DNA of 64,000 nucleotides from Cinnamomum chago (taxonomy: Eukaryota; Streptophyta; Magnoliopsida; Laurales; Lauraceae). Below, piece by piece: positions 14,801 through 64,000 of this stretch (the first letter of the stretch is position 1; every line of letters begins with the position of its first letter). The notes beneath the pieces are model-generated. The model was not told where the DNA came from. It searched no databases and was given only the letters and a program-made list of their open reading frames with translations. The stretch is taken from assembly GCA_038049695.1 (NCBI GenBank), contig CP142451.1, forward strand, positions 36,142,501 to 36,206,500. Direction: 5' to 3'. The position numbers and the translations under genes were made by a program.

Positions 14801-17800
14801 ATAAGGTGACAAATCTAAGATCACAGTCCATAGAACTTGAAAGATTGATAATACTCAGAGTGTATTATTGCTTGTCCCTCCTTTGGAGATCGTATGTCAA
14901 TATATAGATATTACATGCCTTAAACAAGGCTCTAAGTTAATAATTACATCAATTGCTATTCTAAGTAAGGAAACCAAAATCCTTAATAGAATATGTACAG
15001 CTACATTATATATTGACCAAATCAAACCACGTGTGATATGTGTTGGACTAGATCCCTTTATGGGCCTTGGGCCTGTTTAACACACCCACCCCCCCCCCCC
15101 CCTCAAATTGATGCGGGAGAATCAACAAGCATCAATTTGCCAACCAAGAACTGAATGTGTGGTCGTGGAAGACCTTTAGTGAGAATATCAGCAATTTGAA
15201 GCTCAGTGGAGACCTATGGAAGGCTATTGACATTACGTTTAAACTCATCACATATGAAGTGACAATCAACCTCGATGTGTTTAGTGCGTTCATGAAAAAT
15301 CGGATTTTCAGTAATCCGAATGTCAAATACAAGATGGCTCAGGCCCACTTGGGCCCAATATGGTGGCATCCAATCTCGTTGGATTTGGTCAAATATTTGC
15401 ACAGTTTTCTTCCTTCCTTAATTTGATTGTAATTAGATTTAGTCTAATACTCTTTCTTTAATTAGATTGTAATTAGATTAGCTGATTTATAGAGCTGATT
15501 TGTAGCCTTTGATGAGGCATCTGTATTCTATATAATGGGAGAGAATCTCCAATGAAGAGACACAAATTTATAACTCAAAATCTCTTTTACATGCTACGAT
15601 TGTTATGGTATCAGAGCTTCTCTTGTAAAGGCTACCAGTTGTTCATCTTTTGAAAAACCTCAAGGACTCTATCAGAGAGAAATCCTTCTCTCTGTCGTGC
15701 AGCAAACAGATCAAGGATCTGTCCTCAGAAATCTGGTTCCAGGAAAGCCAAATCTTCAACATCTTGAAATTTGATCGCTATGGCCCACCTGCGATCAGCC
15801 CTACTGCTCTTGGGAGACACAATCTTGTGTTTCAGAAGCACACAGATCAAGGATCTGTAATCTTGGCATCAACCAGATCAGTGATCTGTGATTTTTGTAA
15901 GCAGCAGGACTTCTGTCACGATATGATCAACAGTGGCCCACCTGTGATCATCATGACATATTCAGGAAATTCTACAGCAATGGTCGACCATCTCTTCTGA
16001 TATTTTTGGTGATTTTTTCAGCATTTTTTCGGGATCAGAGTTAGGCTTTTGGACCCCATTTGTGATTTTCCAGTTTTATCAGATTGTTTTGATCACAGTC
16101 GTACAAAATCTTGGATCGTGGATGGATTTTAGTGAAACTTGTATTGCTGGAAAGACATTTTGATACTGCTTGTGTCACGACCCAAATTCTGGGGCCCTGT
16201 CGGATATTCGGATCGTGATAACTAGGCAATGTTTACCATTCATTTATCAAATTATTCGCATAAGAGATTTGGCATAAAAATCAACTATAATTCCAATTAA
16301 TTTAAATAAAGTCAAACAATATTGATGTTCTACATACTGTTGGAAAGATCTTTCCAAGTAGATATTTGTAGAGCCCAAGATCGTCCCAATCGGAGCTGTA
16401 TTGAAGGAGATATGGGCACTTGAAGTTGACTGATGCATTACTTGGCAAGGTCACATGTGCGTCTCTCCAGGTCTTCGTTCTTGGTGAAAATCATTTGGCA
16501 AAAGGGATGTTCTCCTCCTTGGTGAGTAGGGGTGTACTCTCCCACTGCTGGTGAGTGGAGGGCGCTTCACACCATTAGTGAGCAGAGTGCATTCCCCGTC
16601 ACTTGGTGAGTGGAAAGTACCTCCTCGCAAGGTTCTCATTAGCTGACCTTTAAACTGCCATAACTTTTGATCTGACCATTGGATTTTGATGTTCTACATA
16701 CAGTTTGAAAGCTCTTACTGATTAGATAACTGTAGAGTCCAAGATCATCTCAATCAAGGATATACCAAAGGAGATATGGTGACTTGAAGTTGACTGATCC
16801 ATGACTTGGCAAGGTCACATGTGGGTTTCACCAAGTCTTGTTTTTTGGTGAAAATCACTTGGCAAAAGGGATGTTCTTCTCTTTGGTGAGTAGGAGGACA
16901 CTCCCCACCACCGCTAAGTGGAGGGGCGCTTCTCACCATTGGTGGGCGGAGTGCATTCCCCGCCACTTGGTGAGTGGAGCGTACCTCCTCGCCACGATCA
17001 CATTAGCTGAACTTTAAACTGTTGTAACTTTTGTCCTGACCATCGGATTTTGATATTCTACATATTGTTGGAAATCTCTAAAAAACTCAAGTAGATGTTC
17101 GTGGCCTCCAAGATCATTCTGATCCAATTTGTATTGAGGGAGATATTGACCCGAGAATGTTGCCACTCAATCTTTTTAAGGGGGTAAATCGTGTTGTGCC
17201 CCAAGAAAAGTCTTCAAAGTGCAAGTTTCTTGAGTTTTCGAGGCACAGGGTGAATGCCCGCGTCCAACTTGGCATCTTTTTTTACGGTGTGAATTTTGAA
17301 AATTTTGACCCGGAGTACCGTATCCACGCAAGATTGCAGTATTTTCCTGTTTGTCCCTGGTTTCACAATCTTCGATTTTGATGCAGTCTGAATCATTTTC
17401 TTTATTTCGGAATTCAGGAACTGTTTTTTATTATTCCATAACTTGAGAAATTCATTTTCCATGATTTTTCATTTTCCATGGAATCTTTGAGCTTTCAAAG
17501 AATCCTTCTTCCATGCTTCTGGCAAGTCATTTCCTGTCTTTTCCTCCTTAAAATTTATGTTTCAACAGGTTCTTCAGGTGAGGCAATGACAGTGGGGTGA
17601 ATCTACTGAAAGGGGATCAGATAGGAGAGAAATCAAGGTCCAAGTTAAAAGGGCATAAAAATGTAAGATGTTGGAATAGCCAAAAGAAAGGTCAATTGAG
17701 AAAACAACCGCAGAAACGAGAAGGTAAATCAGGATAAGTCCAAATCTGATTTGAATGAACCGGAACCCGGTTCAAAGAATTACCAAGGGGACTTGGCAGA

Positions 17801-20800: not shown

Positions 20801-23800
20801 TCATCAAGCACATCAACAATCTCGTCAACAAGTGGAAGATTCGAAGGGAGAGCAATAGTCTGCTCTTCAGTTTCACCATCATGGTCATGACCTCGGTAGA
20901 GTGTAAGATCTTCTACGTTGAAGGTAGAATTAACTCCTAAATCGGATGGTAGATCAAGCACATAAGCATTGGGGCCAATCTTTTTGAGAATCTTGTATGG
21001 ACCAGCATTTCGTGGATGCAACTTTTTATAAGCTCCTGGAGGCACACATTCTGGACGGATACGAACCATGACCATATCTCCTTCAGCAAATTCAAGAAAT
21101 CGACGACGCTTGTCTGCTTGTTGTTTATTAGTGGCATTACTAGCAAATATATGGCGGCGGACCTCGTTGTGCACTTGTTGCATGTGGTGAAAAAAACTTT
21201 CAGCATCGGCACTTATTCGGGCATCAACCGGCAAAGGGAGAAGATCAACAGGAAGTCGTGGCCGAACCCTTGTAATAGCTTCAAATGGAGAAGTACCAAT
21301 AGACCGATTGACCGAGTTATTGTATGCAAATTCAGCCATAGGTAATGCTTGATCCCAAGTTGTGACGTGATCACGAACAAGACATCGTAACAACTGTCCA
21401 AGACTTCTGTGTACCACTTCAGTTTGGCCGTCGGTTTGATGGTGGTAAGCTGTAGAGAATTTGAGCTTGGTATTGGACAACATCCATAAAGTCTTCCAAA
21501 AATAGCTCATGAACTTGGTGTCTCGATCCGAAACAATAGTCTTTGGAAGGCCATGGAGACGAACAACTTCTTTGAAAAAGAGAGTGGCAACCTTGTAGGC
21601 ATCACTAGTGGAAGTACACGGAATAAAATGTGCCATCTTTGAGAAGCGATCAACGACAACAAAAATAGAATCAACTTTTCTTTGAGTCATTGGCAAACCT
21701 AGCACAAAATCCATGCTAATGTCTTCCCATGGAGTATGAGGAACAGGCAAAGGTTGATAAAGTCCAGTGTTCTTATTACCTTTAGCCAGTTGGCATGTCC
21801 TACATCGTTCGCAAATGCGAATAATGGTAGGTTTCATTCGGGGCCAATAATATCTATCGCTGACAAGAGCAAGGGTTTTGTCGCGTCCCAAATGGCACTA
21901 CATCCTCCCGAATGCAACTCGCGGACAACATATTCACGAATGGACGTGGCAAGGAGGCAGAGTCGTGTACCTGTAAACAAAAAATCATCATGAATGCTAT
22001 AATGAGGATGCTTACCAAGATCACCATTGCGGAGGTCTGCATAGATAGAACCAAAGTCTGGATCATCCGCATAATCTAGCTTGAGTTGGTCAAAACCTGG
22101 TACACTAACAGACATGGTTGTCAACAAATGTTTTCTTCGACTAAGTGCATCAGCGATCAAATTATCTTTTCCGACCGTGTGGCGAATGCTGAAACTGAAC
22201 TCCTGTATATATGCGCTCCACTTGGCACGGTTGGCACTGATCTTTTGCTGTGAATGTAGATGTCGCAAAGCATCATTGTCTGAGTAAAGAACAAACTCGT
22301 TGCCAATCAAGTAATGTCTCCAATGACGAAGGGATTGTACAACGACATAGAGTTCCAAATCATAAGAAGAGTACTTTTTCTTGGCATCAGAAAGTTTCTC
22401 ACTGAAAAATGCAATCGGATGTCTCTCTTGACTAAGAACACCTCCAATGCCAACATTTGATGCATCACAAGCAATTTCGAAGACCTTGTCAAAATTTGGA
22501 ATTTGTAAAACGGGTGCCTCCGTGATTTTACGCTTTATCTCTTCAAAGGCTCTAGTGGCTGAACTAGTCCACTTAAATTCACCATTCTTCATGCAATCTG
22601 TGATTGGAGCCATGATACTGCTGAAGTTTCGAATGAATCTCTTATAAAAGTTTGCAAGACCATGAAAACTTCGAACTTCAGTGAGTGTAGTAGGAATGGG
22701 CTAGTCCCGAATTGCTTTGACCTTCTCAGGGTCCATTTTAATTCCTTCTGCTGTCGGTGACATCCTTGGTCCCATTCCATTGAAAAATGTTTATTTGTGT
22801 CCCACTTTAACTTCCAAGCTTTTGTCAGTCGGGCAACTTGTTGAAAATAAATGTAACATCTCTTTTTCTTCTTCTGATTGTGTTGTGCAGGACTAGCTGT
22901 CCGGGAAGGAGATAGTGAGGGGGCCTAAGTGTGGACGCTTGTTTCCGCTGGATTTTTCTAAAATTTCTAGGAATCAATTTGACAATAATGTGTTTTGTTT
23001 TTCTCTTAGAGATAACTGCCGATTGTGGCATAATAGACTCGGACATCCTAATTCCAAGGCTTTGTCCCTTATGTTAAATTCTGGTTTATTAAATAAATTT
23101 ATTGGTTTATCTTCTTGTGTGCCTTTTGATTGTGCTACTTGTAAAATGGGAAAGACCAAAACTCTCCCGTTTCCTCATTCCACTTCACTCACCACTCAGT
23201 GTTTTGATTTAGGTCATAGTGATGTATGGAGCATTGCTCCGGCTCTTTCCCACGCTCACTATAAATATTTTGTGACTTTTATTGATGATTTCAGTTGGTT
23301 CACATGGGTCTACTTTCTGCATTCAAAATTTGATGTTTTTAATGTTTTTAAAATCTTTTTAGCTTATGTTGAGAATCAATTTTCCACTTGCATTAAAATC
23401 TTGCGATCTGATTCAGGCGGGGAATATATGTCCTCAGATTTTCAACGGTTTTTGCAAAAGAAAGGCATTATTTCTCAAAGAACTTGTCCTTATACTCCAC
23501 AGCAGAATGGAATCGCTGAAAGGAAAAATAGACATCTCCTTGATGTCACTCGTTCCCTTCTTCTTGAATCATCGGTTCCTACCCGTTTTTGGGTTGAGGC
23601 ACTGGCTACAGCAGTTCATCTTATCAATCGTAAACCATCAACCTCCATTGAGAATCAAAGCCCATATTACCGATTGTACAAGACCTATCCATCCTATGAT
23701 GATCTTCATGTTTTTGGCTCTACTTGCTTTGTGCACTTGCCTCCTTCTGAGAGAACAAAACTAACCGCACAATCAGCTCAGTGTGTGTTTTTAGGTTATG

Positions 23801-26800
23801 CGCCCTTCCAAAAAGGGTTCCTTTGTTATGATCCTCATATTCGTCGTTTACGTACCTCTAGGAATGTCGTTTTCTTTGAACAACAGTATTTTTTCAAAAT
23901 CACATTGACCCTCCTGACTCCTCTTCTTTCGTGTCTTTACCTGGTTTTTCTGACAACCCGTCAGTTGTTCGATTTAATCCTAAATTTGTGTATCACAGAC
24001 GGAACAGCACAACGCCTACCAGGGATCCCCCTCCTGATCTTCCTCCAGCATCCGATCCACCCCCAGCAACTGCTCCCTCTGGACATCCTTCATTGCGTCT
24101 CTCCTCTCGTATTTCGGTACCACCAGCCCGTTATGGATTCTCACATGCTTCCTTAATGGCCCCTTTATCTTCCTCTTCCATTCCCCAATCCTATTCTCAG
24201 GCTGTGCAGGACCCATGTTGGAACAAGGCTATGCAAGATGAATTGGCTGCGTTAGAGCAAAATCATACATGGGATATTGTCCCATCTCCTGTGGGTGTCA
24301 AGCCTATTGGCTGTAAATGGGTTTTTTCTCTTAAGTTAAAATCTGATGGTACTTTAGATCGATATAAGGCGCGTCTTGTCGCTCTTGGAAATCAGTAGGA
24401 ATATTGCATTGATTATGGTGAAACTTTTGCTCCGGTTGCCAAGATGACCACCGTACGCACAATTCTTGCTGTTGTTGTTGCTGCATCTCAGTCTTGGCCT
24501 TTATATCAAATGGATGTCAAAAATGCATTTCTACATGGTGATCTCAAAGAAGACGTTTATATGCGCTTGCCTTAGGGATGCTCATCCGGGAAGGGTATGG
24601 TTGCCAAACTTCGTCGCTCCCTCTATGGTCTGAAACAAGCTCCTCGCGCATGGTTTGAGAAATTTCAAGCTGCTCTTCTCCGCTTGGATTTTCATCCAAG
24701 CTCGTATGATCCCTCAATGTTTTTACATCATGCTCCATTCGAGATCACTGTACTACTTGTCTATGTTGATGATATCGTCATTACTGGTCCTAATGCCAAA
24801 ATGATTCAGGAGCTCCAAGCATCTCTTCGTGAGACATTTCACATGAAGGATCTCGGCCCCCTACACTATTTCCTCGGTCTTGAAGTTCATCAATAGACTA
24901 AAGGTATCGTTCTCAATCAGCACAAATACACTGTTGATCTCATTGCCTTGGCTGGTCTTACTGCTTTAACTCCTGTAGACACGCCGGTTGAACTGAATGT
25001 CAAACTCAGTCGCGATGAGGGCGATCTTCTTTCTGATCCTAGTGCATATCTCCAGTTAGTTGGTAGCTTGATCTACCTCACGATCACTCGTCATGATATC
25101 TCTTATGCGGTCAACATGATGAGTCAGTTCATGACTGCTCCTCGTCACTTTCATCTGGCTGCTGTTCGCCGCATCATTCGGTGCCTTATTCGCACACCGA
25201 CTCGTAGGTTGTTTTTTCCGTCCAACAATCCTTTATCTCTCAAAGCTTATTCCGATGCTGATTGGGCTGGTTGTCCGGATACTCGTAGATCGACGACAAG
25301 ATGGTGCATGTTTTTGGGTGATAGTCTCATTTTTTGGAAATGCAAAAAACATGAAAAAGTTTCCAAATCCTCTATCGAGGCCAAGTACCGAGCCATGTCT
25401 GCTGCATGCTCCGAAATTCTTTGGCTCCGTGGTCTGCTCTCTGATATTGGTTTTCCAGCAAAAGGAGCTCCGCCCCTCTATGCGGATAATACAAGTGCAA
25501 TTCAGATTACTGAAAATCCGATTTTTCATGAACGCACTAAACACATCGAGGTTGATTGTCACTTCATCCGTGATGAGCTTAAACGTGACGTCATCAGCCT
25601 TCCGCATGTCTCCACTAAACTTCAAATTGCTGATATTCTCGCCAAAGGTCTTCCATGACCACGACATCAGTTCTTGGTTGGCAAATTGATGCTTGTTGAT
25701 TCTCCCGCATCAATTTGAGGAGGGGTGTTAAACAGGCCCAAGGCCCATCTATGGGCCCATTTATCTCACGTGGATTTAAGTTGGGTCAATATTAGACCAT
25801 TGTACATATTTCTTTCTTTGGTTGCTTTCCTAACTTAGATATACTAATTGATGTAATTAGTTTCCTTCCTAACTTAGAACCCTAATTGATGTAATTAGTT
25901 GCTTTCTTATCTTAGGACCTTGATGAAAGGCATGTATATACATATAAATTGAGGGTCGATCTCCAAAGGAGAGACACACAATAATAGAATACAATTCTGA
26001 AACTTCTGGTCACTCATACGATTCTTGAAATTGTCTTGTTGCATGCTTGGATGAGCCACAACCATGTGTGCATGCATATAAACTAGAGATTGGAGAGTGA
26101 GCTTAGATAACATTGCCATCAGGTGTTACAAAATTCCTTAAAATCAATATCACAAGGATTATCTTTCTTGGATTATGAGAAATATTCTCTTACTCCTTTT
26201 TTCAAATGGATTTTTAAAACAGTATTCCCAATAAACTATGAAACAGTCATGGAAGCTTTAATTCATTCAGATATCAACAGTTAGATGCTTCTGATGATGA
26301 AACAACAATGTGATTAGGATGAAGATTCAAAAGAAACATTTTAAGCTTATTGTCATCTGGGAAAAGCACCTGAGATATCCACGGATTGATTCTTTGATGC
26401 ACTTCATCTAGTACTGGTCCCCGCAAAACCATCATTGGCTCCTAAAACAAGAACCCTATGTTTCTTAACATACAGTAATGAGTTATCCGAACAATTCTTC
26501 AATGATCATCATGAATAAGTGCAAGTTATAAGGGTACCTAACAATGTCAAAAGTCAACACGTACCTGTCCATCAGATTTTAAGGGAAATGTACCATTTGG
26601 ACGAAAGATATATGCTCCGGAGCCCTTAAACAACAGAAATCATACATAGGAATTATGTTTCTATTGAGCAGCACACTGCAAGCAACTAGAAACAAATGAC
26701 TACCTGGGGATCTTTACCACTTCCATCATCTCCAGAATAAAATTTGTATGATTGTTCAATAAATGCTTTAACCTAGAATGATAACAAAAATCATTAGATA

Positions 26801-36700: not shown

Positions 36701-39700
36701 GTTTTTATTCTATGTTTGACATCATCATCAATCTCTCCATCCTTGTTAATTATAAAGCCAAGGTAACAGAATGAATCTCTTCATGATATATATTTTGTCT
36801 TTGTACGACTTATTTTGAAGCTTTGGATTCTATAGCCTCCCCCCATCTATCGAGTTTTACATTCACACCATCTCTCAATTCATCTACCAACATTATATCA
36901 TCTACAAACAACATACACCAAGGTACCTCTTGAATATGAGTAGTTAACTCATCCATAATCAATGTAAAGATATAAGAGCTTAGAGTTGACCCCTGATGCA
37001 AACCTATGGTCACTAGGAAGTAGGAACTCACATCTCTCTTCACAGGTAGTTCTCACTCTTTATTGCTCCCACGTAAATGTCTTTAATAATTTCAATATAA
37101 CCTCTTGGAATATTCTTTTCATTTAAAACCCGCCAAATTAAATACCTAGGTACCCTATCTTAAGCTTTTTCGACATTGATGAAGACCATATGCAAATTTT
37201 TCCTATTCATTTGATATTTTCCATTAACTACTTGAGTGAGAAGATAGCTTCCATAGTTGAACTCCCTGGCATAAAACTATTGGGAAGTCCCACATCCCAC
37301 ATCGCCTAAGTAATAGGCTTGACGTATCTTAATATACCTGTATGGGCCTTCCACCTATCAGCTTAAGCTTTTGGATTGGTATATGGTTTTATTACATGGT
37401 ATCAGAGCCAAGTCAAAAATTAGTGCTTCAGTTAATTTTTATTCTTCAAGATCCAAGGAATTGTGGATTCTCCTGGTCATCTTCCAAGATCTAGAAGCCC
37501 TTCAAAGCTCATATCTCCAGCCTGATCGTCTTTGATCATCTCTGATCGTCTCAGATCTGACGTGGCCCACCTGCGATCATCATCTACTACTCAGCGGAAG
37601 CAGCCCATATTGGTCGCCTGGATTTATACATATTTATGAAGATTTTCTCACAATTTATGGATCATCAGAGGTAGGCCATCTACCAATTTTTGTAGAAAAT
37701 CAGTTTTGTCCATTTCTTTTCATCTCAGCCATTCAAAAGTTTGGATTTGGCTTCATTCTACCTGCGACCACTTCCAAGAGTTGCAGAAATTTGCTGTAAA
37801 CCCATCTCCATACTCAGATCTGTCAACAGATCACTAGGTGGGGCCCCCCCCTAACACAACCCAACTCAAAAATTTGGGTCGTCAGTACCTGTTAGTGCAC
37901 AGTTCTGTGCAAAAGTTGCTGTATCAGCAACTGTTCTATTGCTGGTTACTGCGGGTTCTTCCTACTGCTATTTATACTGCTGATTGTTACTGCTGCATCT
38001 ACTTAATCCAATCTGCTGATTCCTTTTGCAATGCTGCTGTGATAATTTGTTCGTCTGTGTCTTTCTGGGTACTGTTTGTTGTCACTTTTATTCTGTGCCT
38101 TCTGGGAACTGCTCTTGGCTGCTGGTTGCTGTCTGCTGCACCAGTACTGCTGATTGTGTTATTACAATCTTGACTGTGGTCTGATCCGTCTACGATTGGA
38201 CTGCAACAGTACTGCTGCCCAATTAAGCACCCTGTCTTCATTGTGTGTGCTTCTTACTTAGTCTTTAGTAATGGAAAAACATGAGATTAGCCTGGTTCAC
38301 TTTGATGGAACAAATTATACCTCATGGGCCATCCAATTTCAAATTTACTTGGAAGGAAAAGAACTCTGGGCCCACATTGATGGATCTGAACCTCAACCTG
38401 AGGAAGATGACAAGAAGATTTTAGCTTGGAAGACGAAGGATGCTAAAATCAAAACCTAGTTGTTAGGGTCTGTTGAATCACATTTTATCCTCAACCTAAA
38501 ACCTTGCAAAAATGCCCGTGAAATGTGGGACTATCTTAAGAAGATTTATCAACAAGGCAATGCTGCTCGCCAGTTTCAATTGGAACTTGAAATTTCTCAA
38601 TTCACTCAAGGCACCTAGTCTATTCAAGAGTATTACAATGGCTTCCGCAGACTGTGGTCCGAATATGATGAGATTAAGTTTGCCATGGTGTCTACAACAC
38701 TCCTACCGGAATTACTTCCATTACAGCAGAGTAGTCATCGGGATCAGCCTCTCATGAAACTTCGTCTAGAGTTTGAGACAGTTAGATCGAACTTGATGAG
38801 CAGGGCTACTCTTCCTAGCTTGGATGATTGCCTTCAGGAACTTCTGCAGGAAGAACAGCGTCTGGCTACTAAAACTACTCTGGAACAATAGAGATTTGCT
38901 GAGGCTCCGTTTGCCTATGTTGCTACAACCAGACAACCTCCCCGCGACATCAGTAAAGTTCAGTGCCATAACTGCAAAAAATATGGTCACTATGCAAATC
39001 AATGTAAGGCAAAAATTTGCAGATATTGTAAGGCCACTGGTCATGTTATTGACAAATGTCGGAAGAAGGCTCGCAATTCTACTTCCCGCAACTATGTGCA
39101 GTCAGCCCCTGGTCCTTACACAGTGCTGCCAGCTCCTACTGCTTACACAGTGACCACTCCACAATATGCCTCCTCTGACTTCGGTGGTACTCTGCAGTAT
39201 GAGTCATCCTCACAGCCTGGTTCCTCATCACACTCTGCGTCCCTGGCTCCTCTCACCCCTGAGATGGTAAACCAAATGATCATCAATGCCTTGGCCTCCA
39301 TGAACATCACAGGTACTGATTCCCCTCTTACCAATACTTGGTACTTAGATTCTGGTGCAAGTAACCATATGACATCTTCACCCACAAAATTACAAAATGC
39401 CGTTCCTTACACTGGTCATCTCACTGTTCAAGCTGCCAACGGTGATCATCTTCCCATCACCTCTGTTGGTGATACCCCTGGCCCCTTACCATTAACCAAT
39501 GTTTTAGTTTCTCCTCATCTTGCTACTAATTTGGTTTCTGTGGGTAAACTTGTTGAAAATAATTACAATGTCTCCTTTTCTTCTTCTGGATGTGTTGTGC
39601 AGGACCAGGAGTCGAGGGAAGTGATTGCGAGGGGGCCTAAGGGTGGAAGACTTTTTTCCTTACCAATGTCTTCAGTTGTTCAGAATAAAACTTTACATCA

Positions 39701-42700
39701 GTTATTTTGTTTTTTTATTAAGAATAATTCTCGGTTGTGGCATAATAGACTTGGTCATCCGAATGCTTCTACATTGTCTACTTTATTTCAATATGGATTA
39801 TTAAATAAGCCTATTGACTCTGCTTCTTTTGAATGTGATGCTTGTAAATTAGGAAAGAGTAAAACTTTACCTTTTCTGCACTCCATAACACGGAGCACTG
39901 CATGTTTTGACTTGATTCACAGTGATGTTTGGGGCATTGCTCCGACCCTTTCCCATAGTCATTTCAAGTACTTTGTAACATTCATTGATGACTACAGCAG
40001 ATTTACTTGGATTTATTTATTACATTCTAAGTCTGATGTTCTTAATGCATTTAAATTTTTTGTTAACTATGTTGAAAACCAATTTTCCAAATGCATTAAA
40101 ACTTTGCGCTCAGACTCGGGGGGAGTATGTTTCCAAGGATTTTCAATCCTTTTTAAACAATAAAGGAATCATTTCTCAACTTACCTGTCCGTATACTCCA
40201 CAACAAAATGGAGTCGCAGAACGGAAAAACAGACATCTTCTTGATGTAACTAGAACTCTTCTGATTGAATCATCCGTTCCCCCTCGTTTTTGGACTGAAG
40301 CTCTCACCACGGCTGTCTATCTCATAAACTGCCTTCCATCACCTACCATTGCTCATTTCACACCTCATTTTAAACTGTTTGGTCATCATCCTATGTTTGA
40401 TCACCTACATACCTTTGGTTGTGTTTGCTTCGTTCGTCTACCTCCCACAGAAAGAACGAAACTAACAGCACAACCTCGCAGGTGGCCTTTTTGGGTTATA
40501 CCACTAATCAAAAAGGTTTTGTTTGTTATGATCCCATTGGTCGTCGTATCAAGGTTTCTCAAAATGTTATTTTATTTGACAATCAATATTTCTTCCAAAC
40601 TCACATGGACTATCCTCATCCATCTTCACCAGCTCTCTTACCCAGTTTTTCGGATCAAACAACTGTTACTCGATTTAATCCTGCTTTTGTATATCACCGA
40701 TGGGAAAAACCTACCACTACAGATGGCTGCCCTCCTGATCCTCCACAAGCAAATGGTTCAATGCCTACTCATGCCTTGCGTCGCTCCACCAGAAATTCTA
40801 GACCGCCTGAGCGGTATGGATTTACCCATACTTCTTTGATGACCACCCTATCTTCTGTCTTTATCCCAAGTTCGTATTTGAAGGTTGTACAACAAGATTG
40901 CTGGAACCAGGCCATGCAGGAGGAATTCGATGCATTGGATCAGAATCACACCTGGGATATTGTGGAGTGTCCTTCAGCAGTTAAACCCATTGGTTGCAAA
41001 TGGATCTACTCGATTAAACTTAAATCTGATGGGACCTTGGATAGACACAAAGCTCGACTTGTGGCACTCGAAAACAGACAAGAGTATGGCATTGACTACG
41101 AGGAAACATTTGCACCTGTGGCAAAAATGACATGTGACAAAACTATGATAGTAGAACTAGAAAGATTGAAGATACTCAAAATTGTATTATTGTTTCTTCT
41201 CCTTTGGAGATCGTATGTCAATATATAGTTATTACAATGCCTTAATCAAGGCTCCAATTTAAGAAACTAACTAATTACAATCAATTTCTATTCTAAGTTA
41301 GGAAACCAAAACCTTAATAGAATATGTACAGCTGAATAATATATTGACCAAATCAACCCACGTATGATATGTGTTGGACTGGATCCTGTTATGGGCCTTG
41401 GGCCTATTTAACACCCCCCCTCAAATTGATGCGGGAGAATCAACAGGCATCAATTTGCCAACCAAGAACTGATGGCGAGGTCGTGGAAGACCTTTGGTGA
41501 GAATATTAGCAATTTGAAGTTCAGTAGAGACATGCGGAAGGCTGATGACATCGCGTTTAAGCTCATCTCGTATGAAATGACAATCAACCTCGATGTGTTT
41601 AGTGCGTTCATGAAAAATCGGATTTTCAGTAATCCGAATTGCACTAGTATTATCTGCATAGAGGGAGGTAGCTCCTTCTGCAGGAAAACCAATGTCAGAG
41701 AGCAGACCTCAGAGCCAAAGAATTTCGGAGCAGGCAGCAGACATGGCTCGATACTCGGCCTCGGTAGAGGATTTGGAAACTTTTTCATGTTTCGTGCATT
41801 TCCAGGAAATCAGACTATCACCCAAAAACATACACCATCCTATCGTCGATCTACGAGTATCTGGACAACCAGCCCAATCAGCATCGGAATACGCTTTGAG
41901 AGATAGAGGATTGTTGGATGGAAAAAACAACCCCCGAGTCGGTGTGCGAATAAGGTACCGAATGATACGGCGAACAGTAGCCAGATGAAGATGACGAGGA
42001 GCAGTCATGAACTGACTCATTAGGTTGACCGCAAAGGAGATATCCGGACGGGTGATCGTGAGGTAGATCAAGCTACCCACTAACTGGCGATATGCGGTAG
42101 GATCTGGAAGAAGGTCACCCTCCTCTTTAATGAGCTTGACATTTAGTTCGATCGGCGTATCGACTGGAGCGGAAGAAGTAAGGCCAGCCAAATCAATAAG
42201 ATCAACCGTGTATTTGTGCTGATTGAGAACGATACCCTTAGGCGATTGATGAACTTCAAGACCAAGGAAATAATGTAAGGGGCCTAGATCCTTCATTTGA
42301 AATGTTTGATGAAGAGAAGCTTGGAGTGCCTGAATCATTTGTGCATTTGGACCAGTAATGACAATGCCATCCACGTAGACTAGGAGCACAGTAATCCCGG
42401 ACGGAGCATGATGTAAGAACATGGAAAGATCATACTGGCTAGGATGAAAATCCAAACGGAGAAGAGCAGCTTGAAATTTCTCAAACCATGCGCGAGGAGC
42501 TTGCTTCAGACCATAGAGAGAGCGACGAAGCTTAGCAACCATACCCTTCCCAGAGGAGGACCCTAGAGGTAGACGCATATAAACATCTTCTTTGAGATCA
42601 CCATGAAGAAACGCATTTTTTACATCCATTTGATAAAGAGGCCAGGACTGAGATGCAGCAATAGCAAGGATGATGCGTACGGTGGTCATCTTGGCGACAG

Positions 42701-45700
42701 AAGCAAAGGTCTCATCATAATCAATGCCATATTCCTGCCGATTTCCGAGAGCAACAAGGCGCGCCTTATACCGATCTAGAGTGCCATCTGATTTTAACTT
42801 GAGAGAAAAGATCCACTTGCAGCCAATAGGTTTGACACCCACAGGAGAGGGGACAATATCCCACGTATGATTTTTCTCTAAAGCAGCCAATTCATCTTGC
42901 ATAGCCTTGTTCCAACATGTATCCTGCACAGCCTGAGAATAGGATTGGGGAATGGAAGAAGAGGACAAAGTGGCCATTAAGGAAGTATGGGAGAACCCAT
43001 AGCAGTCGGGTGGGACCGAAATGCGAGTGGAGCGACGCAATGAAGGAGGGCCAGATGGACCAAGTGCCAGAGGTGGACCGGATGCTGGAGGAAGATCAGG
43101 AGGGGGATCCCTGGGAGGCGCTTCTCTGTTCCGTCTGTAATACACAAAGTCTGGATTAAAACGAACAACTGAGGTGTGGTCAGAAAAACCAGGTAAAGAC
43201 ACCAAGGAGGAGGAGGCAGGAGGATCAAGGTGTTTTTGAAAAAAATACTCTTTTTCAAAGAAAACGACATTTCTAGAGGTCTTGAAGCGACGAATGTGAG
43301 GATCATAGCAAAGGAACCCTTTCTGGAAGGGCGCATAACCTAAAAACACACACTTAGCGGATTGTGCGGTAAGTTTGGTTCTCTCAGAAGAAGGTAAGTG
43401 CACAAAGCAAGTGGAGCCAAAAACATGAAGATCATCATATGATGGAGATGTCTGGTACAAGCGGTAATGTGGGCTCTGATTTTCAATAGAGGGTGATGGC
43501 ATACAATTTATAAGATGAGCTGCTGTAGCCAGTGCCTCAACCCAAAAACGGGAAGGAACTGATGATTCAAGAAGGAGGGAACGAGTGACATCAAGGAGAT
43601 GTCTGTTTTTCCTTTCAGCGACTCCATTCTGCTGTGGAGTATAAGGACAAGTTTTCTGAGAAATAATGCCTTTGCTTTGTAAAAACTTTTGAAAATCAGA
43701 GGACACATATTCCCCACCCGAATCAGATCGCAAGACTTTGATGCAGGTGGAAAATTGATTCTCAACATAAGCTAAAAAATTTTTAAAAACATTGAAGACA
43801 TCAGATTTGGAATGCAGAAAGTAAACCCATGTGAACCGACTGAAATCATCGATAAAAGTCACAAAGTATTTATAGTGAGCATGAGAAAGAGCGGGAGCAA
43901 TTCCCCATACATCGCTATTAACTAAATCAAAACACCGAGTGCTGTGCGAAGTGGAAAGAGGAAAAGGAAGAGTTTTGCTCTTGCCCATTTTACAAGTAGC
44001 ACAATCAAAAGGCACACAAGAAGATAAGCCAAGAGATTTATTTAATAAACCAGAATTCAACATAAGGGACAAAGCCTTGGAATTAGGGTGTCCGAGTCTT
44101 TTATACCACAATTTGCAGTTATCTCTAATGGAAAAACAAAACACATCATTGTCAAATTTATTCCTAGAAGTCTTAGAAAAATCCAGCGGAAACAAGCGTC
44201 CACACTTAGGCCCCCTCGCGATCTCCTTCCCGGACATCTGGTCCTGCACAACACAACCAGAAGAAGAAAAAGAGATGTTACAATTATTTTCAACGAGCTG
44301 CCCGACTGACAAAAGGTTGGAAGTTAAATTTGGACACAGATAAACATTTTTCAATGGAATGGGACCAGGGATGTCACCGACAGCAGTAATGGGAACATGG
44401 TCCCCGTTAGCAGTTTGTATTAGAAGATGGCCATTGTATCTTTGCACATTTGAGAGTGGGGCACGGGAAGACGTCATATGATTAGACGCCCCGGAATCAA
44501 GGAACCAAGTAGAAGATGAGGGGATGTACCTGAGAGGCCAAAAGCAGAGAGGGCATTGACAATCATCTGTTGGACCAATTCAGGAGTGAGAGAGGATGAG
44601 GGCTCAGGCTGCGAGGGTGCCGATGGAGGAACAGGCATAACCGAAGAAGCAACATACGCATGCGGAGTCTGATACTGCGGAGTCTGAGACTGCGGTGATG
44701 GACGTTGTGGGCGGCGGCGACATTCAGAGATGATATGTCCCGACTTTTTACAGTAACTGCAGACCTTTTGTTTGCATTGAGTTGCAATATGTCCAAATTT
44801 TTTACAACTGTAACATTGCGTTTTGCTCAAGTCTCGAGGTGGAGGCTGAGAAGTCCTATTGGCAGAGAACGCGACGGAATAAGTCTCGGTCTTTGATTGA
44901 GCTATATGAGCTGAGGTCGCAATGCACTGTTCTTCTCGTAGGAGTTCATTCAGACAGACATCCAACGAAGGTAATGGCGTCCGATTCATTAGGGTAGATC
45001 GGACAGTCTCGTAATCATTCCGTAATTTCATCAAAAATTGATCCCTTTGACTAGAGTCCTGAAGATCTTGAATTACTGTCAACACATCGTCAGCCACATC
45101 CGCATACTTAATACTATTGTATTCCGACCACAGTGTACGGAAACCTGAATAGTAGTCTTGTACCGACAAGGTCCCTTGTGCATATTCAGCAATCGCACAT
45201 TCAAGATGAAATTGATGCGCAGAGTTATCTTGATGGTATACTTTCTTCAAATACCCCCACATGGCTTTAGAGGTTGAATAAGGCTTGAGATTCATTATCA
45301 GATGAGGCTCGACAGATCCCAGAATCCAAGATTTGATTTTGGCATCTTTAGTATGCCAAGAAGAGATCTTCTTCTCATCCTCAGTGGGTTTAGGGTAAGT
45401 CCCAGACACAAATCCCCACAATTCCTTAGCTTCTAGGTATATTTGAAATTGAAAGGACCAAGCAGGGTAATTTTTTCCAGTGAAACGGATCAAGGTAACT
45501 TCAGATTTTTCCATCTCAACTTGATATTGGCAAAAAAAAAATTGGTCAAGACACCAGCAAAGAGAACAGCAGCAACCAGGAAGGTGTACGTGAGCCCCAC
45601 CAATTGATCTTCTCACAGATCTGAGGATGGAGATGAACTCTAATAGAAATATAGAAACAGCAGCAGCAAAATCAAGTGACTCACGTAGCCACAGCACACA

Positions 45701-48700
45701 ACTGGGACAAAAAAAACTCCAGACGACCCTGTCGTCAGTGGAAGAATTTCCACGTGGTCCCCAGATGGTGATCAATGGTCAGATCAAGGACTGGGGATGG
45801 AAGGTTAGACTATTTTCGCAACTATTGGAAGAAGTCTCACTCAAAACGGACCAAAATCCACAATTCTGGACGGCTGAGATGAAATCTGATAGAAAAAACT
45901 GAAATACCAAAAATATGGTAGATGGCCTACCTCCGATGATCAAAAATTGCTGAAAAAATGTCCAAGAATTCTAGGATGAGTGGTCGACCAAGATGGGAGG
46001 CTCTGTTGATGCTCCAGTACTGATCAAAGGTGGGCCCCTGATGAGTTGCTCCAAGTTGCTGACGTGAATGGTTCCCAGAACCTAAATCTGTTCTCTGATT
46101 TCTCTGCTGAGTCAAACAACCGTCCACAAGGCTCTGAATCAACTGTCGATCAAGATAGGATGATGTCTGTGATGAACTTGGGCTGATCTGTGGTGGGCCA
46201 CAGTGATCAGACTTCAAGATGTTGATGAAAAACTATGTTTAACATGCACGAACAGTCAAGGACAGGATGTCAATGACTGTTATCACCAAGATTCGACAAA
46301 CAAGTCGAAGAAGAAGACTAGAAGAGGAAAGATTTATCAAAAAGCTCTGATACCATGACAAAACTATGATAGCAGAACTTGAAAGATTGAAGATACTCAA
46401 AATTGTATTATTGTCTGTTCTCCTTTGGAGATCGTATGTCAATATATAGTTATTACAATGCCTTAATCAAGGCTCCAATTTAAGAAACTAACTAATTACA
46501 ATCAATTTCTATTCTAAGTTAGGAAACCAAAACCTTAATAGAATATGTACAGCTGAATAATATATTGACCAAATCAACCCACGTATGATATGTGTTGGAC
46601 TGGATCCTGTTATGGGCCTTGGGCATGTTTAACAATATGTTTGATTACTTCTCGCCATTGCTGCATCTAAATCTTGGCCATTATACAAAATGGATGTCAA
46701 AAATGCATTTCTCCATAGGGATCTGCAAGAAGAAGTCTATATGCGTATACCACAAGGCGTCTCCTCTCCCTCCAAGCGGTCTGTCTGTCGACTGCGCAAA
46801 TCGCTTTATGGTCTAAAGCAAGCTCCTCGAGCATGGTTCGAAACCTTCAGAGGTCGCTTACGCGAAAGTGACTTTACTCAGAGCCCTTATGATCCATCTC
46901 TCTTTCTATGCCACACATCTACTGGGGTTACTATGCTTCTGGTATATGTTGACGATATTATTATCACTGGAACGGATGCTGGTATGATCAAATCTCTCCA
47001 AGATTCCCTCCGGCATTACTTCCATATGAAGGATTTGCGCCCTTTGCATTATTTTTTGGGCTTAGAGGTGCATCAATCTCCCAAAGGTCTATTTGTTAAT
47101 CAACACAAATACACATCAGACCTTATCGAGTTGGCTGACCTCCATGATTCTTTGCCTGTTGATACGCCTATTGAGGTAAATCTCAAGCTGAGTAAAGATG
47201 ATGGCGATCTTCTTTTTGATCCTCATACCTACCGGCGCCTGGTGGGAAGTCTTGTCTATCTCACCATCACTAGATCTGTCATATCCTATGTCGTTAATCT
47301 TGTGAGCCAGTTCATGACCGCTCCTCGACACCTTCATTTAACAGCTGCGAAGCGCATTATCTACTATCTGCTAAGAACTGTCCCTCGTGGTTTATATTAT
47401 CCAAAGGATAATCCTCTTCATCTGACCGCTTATGCGGATGCTGACTGTGCAAGCTATCAAGACACACGTCGTTCTACTACTGGTTGGTGCATGTACCTTG
47501 GAAATTCGCTCATTTCTTGGAAATGCAAGAAACATGAACGTGTGTCCCGCTTTTCCACGGAAGCTGAATATAGGGCAATGTCTTCTACTTGTTCTGAGAT
47601 CTTATGGCTACGGAGACTTCTTTCGAAACTTGGGTTCACTCAAGCCTCTCCTACTTCATTGCATGCCGACAATACTGGGGCTATCCGAATCACTGAAAAT
47701 CCCGTCTTCCATGAACGTACCAAACATATCGAAGTTGACTGTCACTTTATTCGGGATGCATATAAGCGGGATGTAATTAGTCTACCTCATGTCCCTACAG
47801 AGTTTCAGTTTGTAGATATCTTCACAAAGGGACTTCCTCGGCCTCGACATCAATTTCTTGTTTCCAAATTGCTGCTTTATGACTCCCCAGCATCAATTTG
47901 AGGGGGGGTGTCAATCCAAGCCCAGGCCCATTTTGGGCCCAAACATCATATCTTACTTAGTCAAAGACAAGTACATACTTAGTTTGTAAAACTAAATTTT
48001 AGGATCTAGATAAGATGAGATATTGATATTTGCATGTAATCAGGGCATTCAGCCCCTATATAAGATGAGAACAGTCGACCCTCATGAGCACGGCATTCAG
48101 CATACCTTTTGTGTTTTCTTTCCATCTCTCTCAATTACATGGTATCAGAGCGGGTTTCGATCCCGGTGTTCTTATGTAGCCCACGTGACAGGCCCGTCCA
48201 TGAAATCCGTTGGGCCTGCACGTGAGGGGGAGTGTTGGGAAGTCCCACATCCCACATCGCCTAAATAATAAGCTTGACGTATCTTAATATACCTGTATGG
48301 GCCTTCCACCTATCAGCTTAAGCTTTTGGGTTGGTATATGGTTTTATTACAAAAACCAAAATGATTTTCAGATATCTTGGTCTTTTGTCTAAGTTTTTAC
48401 TCCATTACTCCCTCCCATAGCTTCATAAGTCATAAGTTTAATCCCACAATAGTTGTATGTGTAATTTTCGCTTGAAGCACCACTAATCAAATAGCCATTA
48501 TAGCACCATTCTGTAAGGGCCACCCAATTTGAGCTGCCACAAATCATGGGAAGGCCTATGCAATGAATGAAGGATGCCTATACAAGGACAGGTGTGGATT
48601 TCAGAACAGGAGAGTAGCCTATATATGCCAAAACGGGTGGTTATCAATGCCAGTACCGGTCACTGTTTATATTAAAAGAAGAGGAGGAGGAGGCAAAAAA

Positions 48701-63282: not shown

Positions 63283-64000
63283 AGAGATGGAAACCAGAAC
63301 ACAGAAAATCCAAATAAATGTTTTTAATCCAGTGCCCCTTAGGGTCGACTGTTCTCCCATTATAAAGGGGCTGAATGCCCTGATTACATGCAACTATCAT
63401 TATCTCATCTAATCTAGATCCTAAAAATCAGTTTTACAATTGACTAAGTAAGATATGATGACTGGGCCCAAAATGGGCCTGGGCTTGGATTGACACCCCC
63501 CCTCAAATTGATGCTGGGGAGTCATAAAGCAGCAATTTGGAAACAAGAAATTGATGTCGAGGCCGAGGAAGTCCCTTTGTGAAGATATCTGCAAACTGGA
63601 ACTCGGTAAGGACATGAGGTAGACTAATGACATCCTGCTTATATTCATCCCGAATAAAGTGACAGTCAACTTCGATATGCTTGGTACGTTCATGGAAGAC
63701 GGGATTTTCAGTGATTCGGATAGCCCCAGTATTGTCAGCATGCAATGGAGTAGGAGATGTTTGAGTGAACCCAAGTTCCGAGAGAAGGCCCCGTAGCCAT
63801 AAGACTTCAGAACAAGCAGAAGACATGGCCCTATATTCAGCTTCCGTGGAAGATCTGGACACTCGTTCTTGTTTTTTGCATTTCCAAGAAATAAGCAAAT
63901 TTCCAAGGTACATGCACCAACCAGTAGTAGAACGACGCGTGTCTTGACAGCCAGCCCAATCAGCATCCGCATAAGCAGTCAGATGAAGAGGATTATCCTT
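63283..64000 (-). mobile_element. Ty1/copia element in reverse, RNase H end and 3' LTR, runs off the edge
   Basis: The LTR (about 63283-63495, TGTCAATCCAAGCCC on the minus strand) and the RNase H end (63503-63913 and beyond, [40 protein letters not shown]) match the body and internal LTR of the composite at 46690-48139. It was inserted into the gag region of the copia starting at 54796. The rest lies beyond the window. Confidence 0.85.

Follow-up and report, generated by a model that had tools for sequence, protein, structure and literature searches.

How a pair of short long terminal repeats (LTRs) belonging to a terminal-repeat retrotransposon in miniature (TRIM) came to enclose a copia body that still carries a different LTR of its own is the question raised by an element of Cinnamomum chago. 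The element lies at positions 37278-48351 of the window, by which we mean the whole analysed stretch of 64,000 nucleotides (contig CP142451.1, positions 36,142,501 to 36,206,500). We read its parts directly and searched the source genome (1.06 Gb, 14 contigs). The best explanation is very probably that TRIM and copia RNAs were packaged together, and that one switch during minus-strand synthesis, often at the primer-binding site (PBS), joined them.

Direct reading gives the order AAAAC, LTR-A, PBS, copia body, LTR-B, PBS, TRIM interior (INT), LTR-A, AAAAC, in which AAAAC is the target-site duplication (TSD). The parts are as follows:

37273-37277, no strand: left TSD AAAAC, from direct reading
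37278-37396, plus strand: 5' LTR-A of the TRIM, starting TA and ending ACA, 115/119 identical to the 3' copy
37397-37408, plus strand: first PBS, TGGTATCAGAGC, then the copia-B leader, forming the left junction; in the plain copies L017 and L041, LTR-B stands before this leader
37409-41134, plus strand: copia-B leader, gag, protease, integrase and first part of reverse transcriptase (RT), in broken frames, from domain matches
41135-46634, minus strand: another copia that inserted later into the outer RT, with a 279-bp LTR-N at each end and a TSD
46640-47899, plus strand: remaining copia-B RT and RNase H region (RVT_2, E-value 2e-45; RNase H by eye)
47900-47908, plus strand: copia-B polypurine tract
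47909-48139, plus strand: internal LTR-B, 231 bp, complete and with no LTR-A mixture, 94-97% identical to the plain copia-B LTRs L013-L017 over 47921-48139
48140-48151, plus strand: second PBS, then the TRIM interior, forming the right junction
48152-48232, plus strand: INT, 81 bp, with the purine tract GAGGGGGAG at 48224-48232
48233-48351, plus strand: 3' LTR-A, 119 bp
48352-48356, no strand: right TSD AAAAC

The initial annotation had described matching 119-bp outer LTRs bounded by AAAAC, and an unrelated 231-bp LTR followed by a second PBS, a TRIM-like segment of ~80 bp and a purine tract. Both descriptions held when the two ends and 47909-48232 were read. The outer LTR-A copies differ by 4 mismatches in 119, all of them transitions (K 0.034), and the left copy begins with TA where TG is expected. 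At a substitution rate of 1.3e-8 per site and year, the composite would be about 1.3 million years old. Its body and LTR-B are those of a Ty1-copia element, with an RT of the RVT_2 type, gag and integrase domains, and its own LTRs in plain copies; the Pfam matches are RVT_2 (2e-45), GAG-pre-integrase (2.5e-13) and a zinc knuckle, with rve under its cut-off.

The body had been taken for one element. Copia domains are indeed present, but a second, minus-strand copia is nested in the body at 41135-46634. It accounts for half of the reported 11 kb, and the composite without it measures ~5,569 bp. The LTR-N copies of the nested copia (41135-41413 and 46356-46634) show 6 differences in 279 (divergence 0.022). 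This value is lower than the 0.034 of the outer LTRs, which fits a later insertion. The nested copia has a PBS at 46344-46355, an open stretch of 956 codons and a TSD with one mismatch (ACATG at 41130-41134, ATATG at 46635-46639).

Both parents of the composite exist separately in the genome. TRIMs have short LTRs, a very short interior without genes, a PBS and a purine tract, and plain elements of this kind, with the order LTR-A (118-119 bp), PBS, ~81-bp interior, LTR-A, were found at many loci, as the initial annotation had proposed to check (examples are L023-L025, L029, L030, L032-L036 and L038). A plain copia-B with LTR-B at each end, both ends read, lies at C9:49792498-49797949, and L041 and L042 carry leaders with 95-96% identity to the copia-B leader of the window.

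The architecture of the window is not unique in this genome. A pattern of LTR-A and PBS followed by any letter but G gave 39 matches, many of which are INT variants with A at that place, or other TRIM interiors. Among composites with the window's order (A-forms), six LTR-A-flanked copies were read at both ends, the window included:

Window: TSD AAAAC, perfect; LTR pair 4/119; partner copia-B
C11:16.93M (L103/L124): TSD TGCTG, perfect; LTR pair 2/118; partner D; only the ends were read, with 10.6 kb between junctions
C11:27.95M (L104/L125): TSD GATTA, perfect; LTR pair 3/118; partner E; only the ends were read, with 4.7 kb between junctions
C8:56.19M (L027): TSD GTATG/GTACG, one mismatch; LTR pair 0/118; partner F
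C7:42.83M (L028/L040): TSD TTATT, perfect; LTR pair 4/116 plus gaps; partner copia-B
C9:40.866M (L101/L148): no TSD, flanks CTTAA and ATTTT; LTR pair 3/118; partner another TRIM

Five partner types are thus represented: copia-B (window and C7), D, E, F and another TRIM. Four copies have a perfect 5-bp TSD, one has a mismatched TSD and one has none. A foreign LTR adjoins the second PBS in the window, in C8 and in both C11 copies; C7 is without an internal LTR, its gag meeting INT through a short overlap immediately ahead of the PBS. In the C8 copy, the youngest by LTR identity of the composites measured, the LTR-A copies are identical over 118 bp, and only a leader piece and the internal LTR remain of the copia part. 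The C9 chimera (C9:40865659-40866375) has the order LTR-A, PBS, other interior, other LTR, PBS, INT, LTR-A, and its other LTR ends in GATCCTACAA, close to the quoted end of the rice TRIM OsajRetroS10.

These copies bear on two points of the initial annotation. It had named uniqueness of the left junction as an observation that would speak against a composite inserted as one unit, and similar junctions occur elsewhere in the genome; a unique local rearrangement was therefore rejected. It had also suggested that further copies of the same order with different TSDs would reveal a mobile composite. Such copies exist, but they have other partners or, in the copia-B group, independently acquired TRIM units, which indicates repeated formation, with each product inserted as a unit, rather than the spread of one mobile composite.

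The copia leaders that follow LTR-A at several loci might instead belong to an established autonomous LTR-A family, from which the TRIM was derived by deletion, as proposed for the rice element OsajLTRA10. We consider this very unlikely: the bodies differ between loci, copia-B has LTRs of its own at other loci, the D and F leaders are found joined to their own LTR ends, a foreign LTR adjoins the second PBS in the window, C8 and both C11 copies, and the TRIM units of the chimeras form no group of their own. The spread of one composite family was likewise rejected, since partners and bodies differ and the TRIM units were acquired independently.

The reciprocal order, LTR-X, PBS, INT, LTR-A, PBS, body, LTR-X (B-forms), is also present. 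Among 151 PBS-INT places in the genome that were found by pattern, 30 lacked G at both -12 and -11, and all 30 were read; the pattern overlooks foreign sequence that has G at -12 or -11. Foreign sequence ends exactly at the PBS in 25 of the 30, being LTR-like in 24 and copia coding sequence in L119, as judged by eye. Three matches (L037, L115 and L118) were not counted as foreign because they are plain TRIMs with an altered or partial LTR-A. L109 (C1:120.7M) and L111 (C3:36.69M) were kept out because inverted LTR-A pieces lie upstream of INT; these inverted arrangements fall outside the model.

B-forms make up seven of the 25, with LTR-A followed again by PBS and leader (L107, L077, L112, L022, L126, L012 and, with a damaged LTR-A, L122). 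Ten are truncated, part of the TRIM or body being lost at the far join (L108, L110, L114, L116, L117, L120, L121, L123, L127 and L011); their far side was identified by a BLAST match to the copia body of the window in L110, L116, L120, L121 and L123, as the LTR itself in L011, and by eye in the remaining four. In seven others LTR-A is followed by other sequence, namely the A-forms (window, L027, L124 and L125), L026, L113 and L020. Further B-forms are L010, L055 and L096, as well as L008/L074, L085 and L089, in which coding sequence follows the PBS. The LTR-X copies of the C12 B-form (L012/L070) are 7/222 apart within the TSD GCCAG; those of the C3 B-form (L010/L069) are 11/214 apart, with a TCTCT duplication that is weak because it lies inside a CT repeat. 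L011 on C10 has a TTTGT duplication and no body. L071, upstream of it, was examined for a copia body and contains no copia part; later loss of the body from a B-form accounts better for L011.

One parental type of a B-form lies in the window itself. At 15314-15866 a copia LTR, PBS and leader are contiguous, and the chimera L112 (C3:108.02M) matches this segment at 90% and 94% on two sides that are split by a single PBS-INT-LTR-A unit. The inserted unit is 92% identical to window 48139-48349.

The exactness of these joins decides against a scenario in which a TRIM and a copia came together by nested insertion or by chance and the missing LTR-B was deleted afterwards. Nesting is common here, and the window element itself holds a nested copia. 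However, the deletion would have had to end repeatedly on the same LTR/PBS base, in both orders and with several partners, and LTR-A of the window runs directly into the left PBS with no trace of LTR-B between them. Chance is excluded because plain TRIMs, plain copia-B and more composites occur in the genome. Simple nesting, already contradicted by the recurrence of the exact LTR/PBS border in both orders, was rejected as extremely improbable.

We compared joins at the PBS with those at a control position inside INT. Foreign joins were found at 25/151 places at the PBS and at 0/162 inside INT (Fisher test, P = 4e-9), after three control matches had been set aside as INT variants, judged from 12 letters each; the unsorted counts are 30/151 and 3/162 (P = 1e-7). 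Among 17 B-type chimeras, the far join also falls at the PBS in seven (P ~ 4e-14 if joins were even over a 4-kb body, assuming independence, which is uncertain for pairs such as L022/L127, and correct sorting by eye).

The initial annotation had pointed to the sequence ATTACA, which precedes the PBS TGGTATCAGAGC at both 37397 and 48140, as a natural point for switching. The LTR/PBS border does appear to be the switch point, but ATTACA itself is incidental: other joins lack it before the PBS, and the letters that composites have in common there range from none to ~7. It was accordingly dropped as a cause.

The same full forms, in the exact order and with the TSD of the TRIM left in place, would also result from homologous recombination between DNAs, in which a one-LTR copia circle undergoes a single PBS crossover with a resident TRIM, with the mirror image for B-forms. 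One crossover in the common LTR end and PBS suffices, the window has 18 letters in common there, and a single locus could have arisen in this way. However, several partners have little in common beyond the 12-letter PBS, and an identity of 12 letters is too short for efficient recombination in plants. Nor does circle recombination predict truncated chimeras whose far joins lie in gag or pol with short overlaps (~2-5 letters in the non-PBS joins that were compared with copia, L120, L121 and C7), and it needs many separate circles to strike a target of ~331 bp. We therefore regard it as unlikely.

Of the two origins offered in the initial annotation, uptake of a copia by a TRIM or recombination between copackaged RNAs, the second is best supported, and all classes can be derived from a single minus-strand switch. 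In this model, one copia particle would package RNAs of both the TRIM and copia-B. Minus-strand synthesis would start on the TRIM RNA and copy LTR-A and INT as far as the PBS. The 3' end of the new DNA would then be the PBS complement, GCTCTGATACCA, which has the same letters as the 3' end of initiator tRNA-Met and would allow it to pair, in the manner of the tRNA, with the PBS on the copia RNA. Extension over the copia 5' end and the usual R transfer to its 3' end would follow, after which LTR-B and the body would be copied back to the copia PBS. The R transfer of the second RNA would rebuild its whole LTR, and the internal LTR-B would be complete for this reason. Normal plus-strand transfer via the common PBS would put LTR-A in front, the product being closed by the LTR belonging to whichever RNA synthesis started on, and integrase would insert it as one piece with the TSD AAAAC. 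A start on the copia RNA would instead give the reciprocal B-form, and a switch from inside the body onto the TRIM RNA, with normal plus-strand transfer, would give truncated B-forms with no second event.

Two other switches were considered. One in the R region would leave a mixed LTR, and the window shows none; the whole LTR-B fits a switch at the PBS and not at R. If two minus strands exchanged plus-strand strong-stop DNA, the PBS would also be used, but two exchanges would be needed.

If the copies at C11:16.93M (D), C8:56.19M (F) and C11:27.95M (E) are fusions, the junction between each internal LTR and its own leader should exist elsewhere. With the composite excluded, the D junction was found at 9 places with 0 mismatches and at 8 more with 1-3, and the F junction at 1 exact place and at 14 with 1-3, the matches with 2-3 mismatches being weak. 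The exact F place and the left PBS of the composite have the same unusual last PBS letter, which suggests that this left PBS probably came from the copia.

Independent origins were assessed from both sides of the joins. Clustering of the upstream sequences of 35 loci by blastn gave 19 clusters, or 15 without L109, L111, L119 and the C9 TRIM partner. Plain copies or parental junctions back clusters B, D, F and the L112 family; the remaining clusters were judged by sequence character, with least ground for L133. Ten pairs were compared, and L108/L126, L123/L126 and L110/L122 were left unused because one TRIM unit was cut or damaged. In four pairs of the copia-B group the LTRs are 10.8-16.7% apart and the TRIM units only 2.5-4.5% apart, which indicates that fusions formed repeatedly; those within this group are of independent origin. 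Between C12 and C3, 27/211 sites of the 5' LTR, 78/679 of the leader and 7/210 of the TRIM unit differ; L077 and L096 show the opposite trend (leaders 8/276, TRIM units 18/199). Distances from 17 TRIM units in chimeras are similar for the closest plain TRIM (0.5-4.6%) and the closest chimera (1.0-4.6%); 17 of 18 rows were kept in this comparison, the L012 row being excluded because it measured another TRIM there, and a direct comparison was used for L012 instead.

Several observations weigh against copackaging and a switch at the PBS as the explanation. The parental junction of E was not found in the genome within 3 mismatches, and of the LTR end, the D and F patterns include no more than 10 and 7 letters, two of them differing from LTR-A, which is why their matches at 2-3 mismatches are weak. 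The pairs L027/L116, L022/L127 and L077/L124 are alike in both LTR and TRIM unit; L027/L116 and L077/L124 each pair an A-form with a B-type, and common descent of L022/L127 is possible. The two C11 copies are known from their ends alone, and no TSD was found in the flanks (CTTAA/ATTTT) of the C9 TRIM-TRIM chimera. Ten of the 17 B-type chimeras join away from the PBS, which is thus a hot spot and not the sole site. In a list-order sample, the first 28 of 118 matching TRIM-interior places (C1 to C3:27976150), clearly foreign sequence at the PBS was seen only once (L133), so that 25/151 is no genome-wide rate. Of the rest of this sample, 25 places have LTR-A upstream at least in part, L109 is ambiguous and L139 is rearranged; three of the 28 were judged from the match table only. 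Two extra places outside the 28 also have LTR-A upstream, one in part. Finally, many upstream LTRs and some far sides were assigned by eye.

The nearest known systems are the complexes described by Sabot and Schulman in 2007 (PMC1950507), who named four cases of three-LTR complexes with TSDs between like parents (Angela-like, Squiq and Opie). As in the window, these have three LTRs, a flanking TSD and near-identical outer LTRs, and are attributed to a switch between copackaged RNAs. Their switch is from R to R, with chimeric LTRs predicted (PMC1950507), whereas we observed a join at the PBS, a whole internal LTR, unlike families and both orders. A single TSD surrounds three LTRs in the window; the outer LTRs of the composites are alike (0-4 mismatches in 116-119 sites, C7 with gaps); and two complete cores are present, the copia core, later split, and the non-coding TRIM interior. 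Mixed LTRs of the kind left by an R-region switch were not found, LTR-B matching plain LTR-B throughout. The composite is therefore a variant of the known template-switch complexes, with unlike partners, a PBS rather than an R join, and both orders.

Gao et al. 2016 (PMC4717578) described the rice OsajLTRA10 as a copia with TRIM LTRs, from which the TRIM OsajRetroS10 was derived by internal deletion. Its layout resembles the A-forms, with 115-bp TRIM LTRs, a TRIM interior and a 25-bp sequence ending TGGTATCAGAGCC on either side of a break near nucleotide 130; it is read there as the TRIM ancestor, and the passages on it mention no internal LTR (PMC4717578). Tandemly arrayed TRIMs (PMC4717578), Cassandra arrays (PMC7215508) and Wukong (PMC4528315) are head-to-tail units that share LTRs. 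Priming of a TRIM minus strand on another TRIM RNA would be expected to yield such arrays, and template switching is one route named for them (PMC7215508); they differ from our composites in involving a single family, and recombination or unequal crossing over is the alternative given (PMC7215508). VejuL and BARE-2 are alike in that a TRIM was lengthened, or a copia LTR exchanged, via template switching, but they contain unknown DNA in Veju and Wis-2 sequence in the BARE LTR, and the relevant passages describe no reciprocal orders or PBS-exact joins (PMC1950507, PMC13317346). In the open-licence literature, as far as its accessible text extends, we found no account of unlike elements joined at the PBS in both orders.

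The fusions bear on the largely open question of which autonomous elements mobilise TRIMs. No protein-coding relative was found for 278 of 289 TRIM subfamilies, and only four putative autonomous elements are given (PMC4717578), and the partners of Cassandra are called unknown (PMC7215508). If copackaging with a minus-strand switch is correct, every TSD-flanked TRIM-copia fusion would be a fossil of two RNAs in one particle, and in any sequenced plant a census of fusions would name the families of TRIM helpers. The fusions likewise provide an alternative to the TRIM-by-deletion account of large elements with TRIM LTRs, and indicate that the end of minus-strand synthesis at the PBS is a recombination hot spot between unrelated retrotransposons. 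A bolder proposal, to which we give slightly less than an even chance, is that the 3' end of the finished minus strand regularly acts as primer, in place of the tRNA, at the PBS of a foreign RNA copackaged with its template. Such a relay would join any two elements using the same tRNA and leave a genomic record of the copia families that package TRIMs; published autonomous partners of TRIMs, for example OsajLTRA10 with its duplicated PBS, would then be relay products and not TRIM ancestors.

Some further features were noted. The second PBS and first INT letters of the window (48140-48165) read GGGTTTCGATCCCGG, which resembles the complement of the T arm of initiator tRNA-Met, well past the usual 12 letters; T-arm-like motifs also occur in other TRIM interiors here (L073 and L092). 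At L098 (C6:32.34M), a related TRIM appears to form a tandem array: three LTR-A-like 3' halves are spaced at ~315 bp, and the interior is a different one. Further copia relatives lie on the minus strand of the window at 22748-25862 and 63326-64000: one is 88% identical to window 41269-44386, and the other is 90% identical to the 3' part of copia-B and runs past the end of the window.

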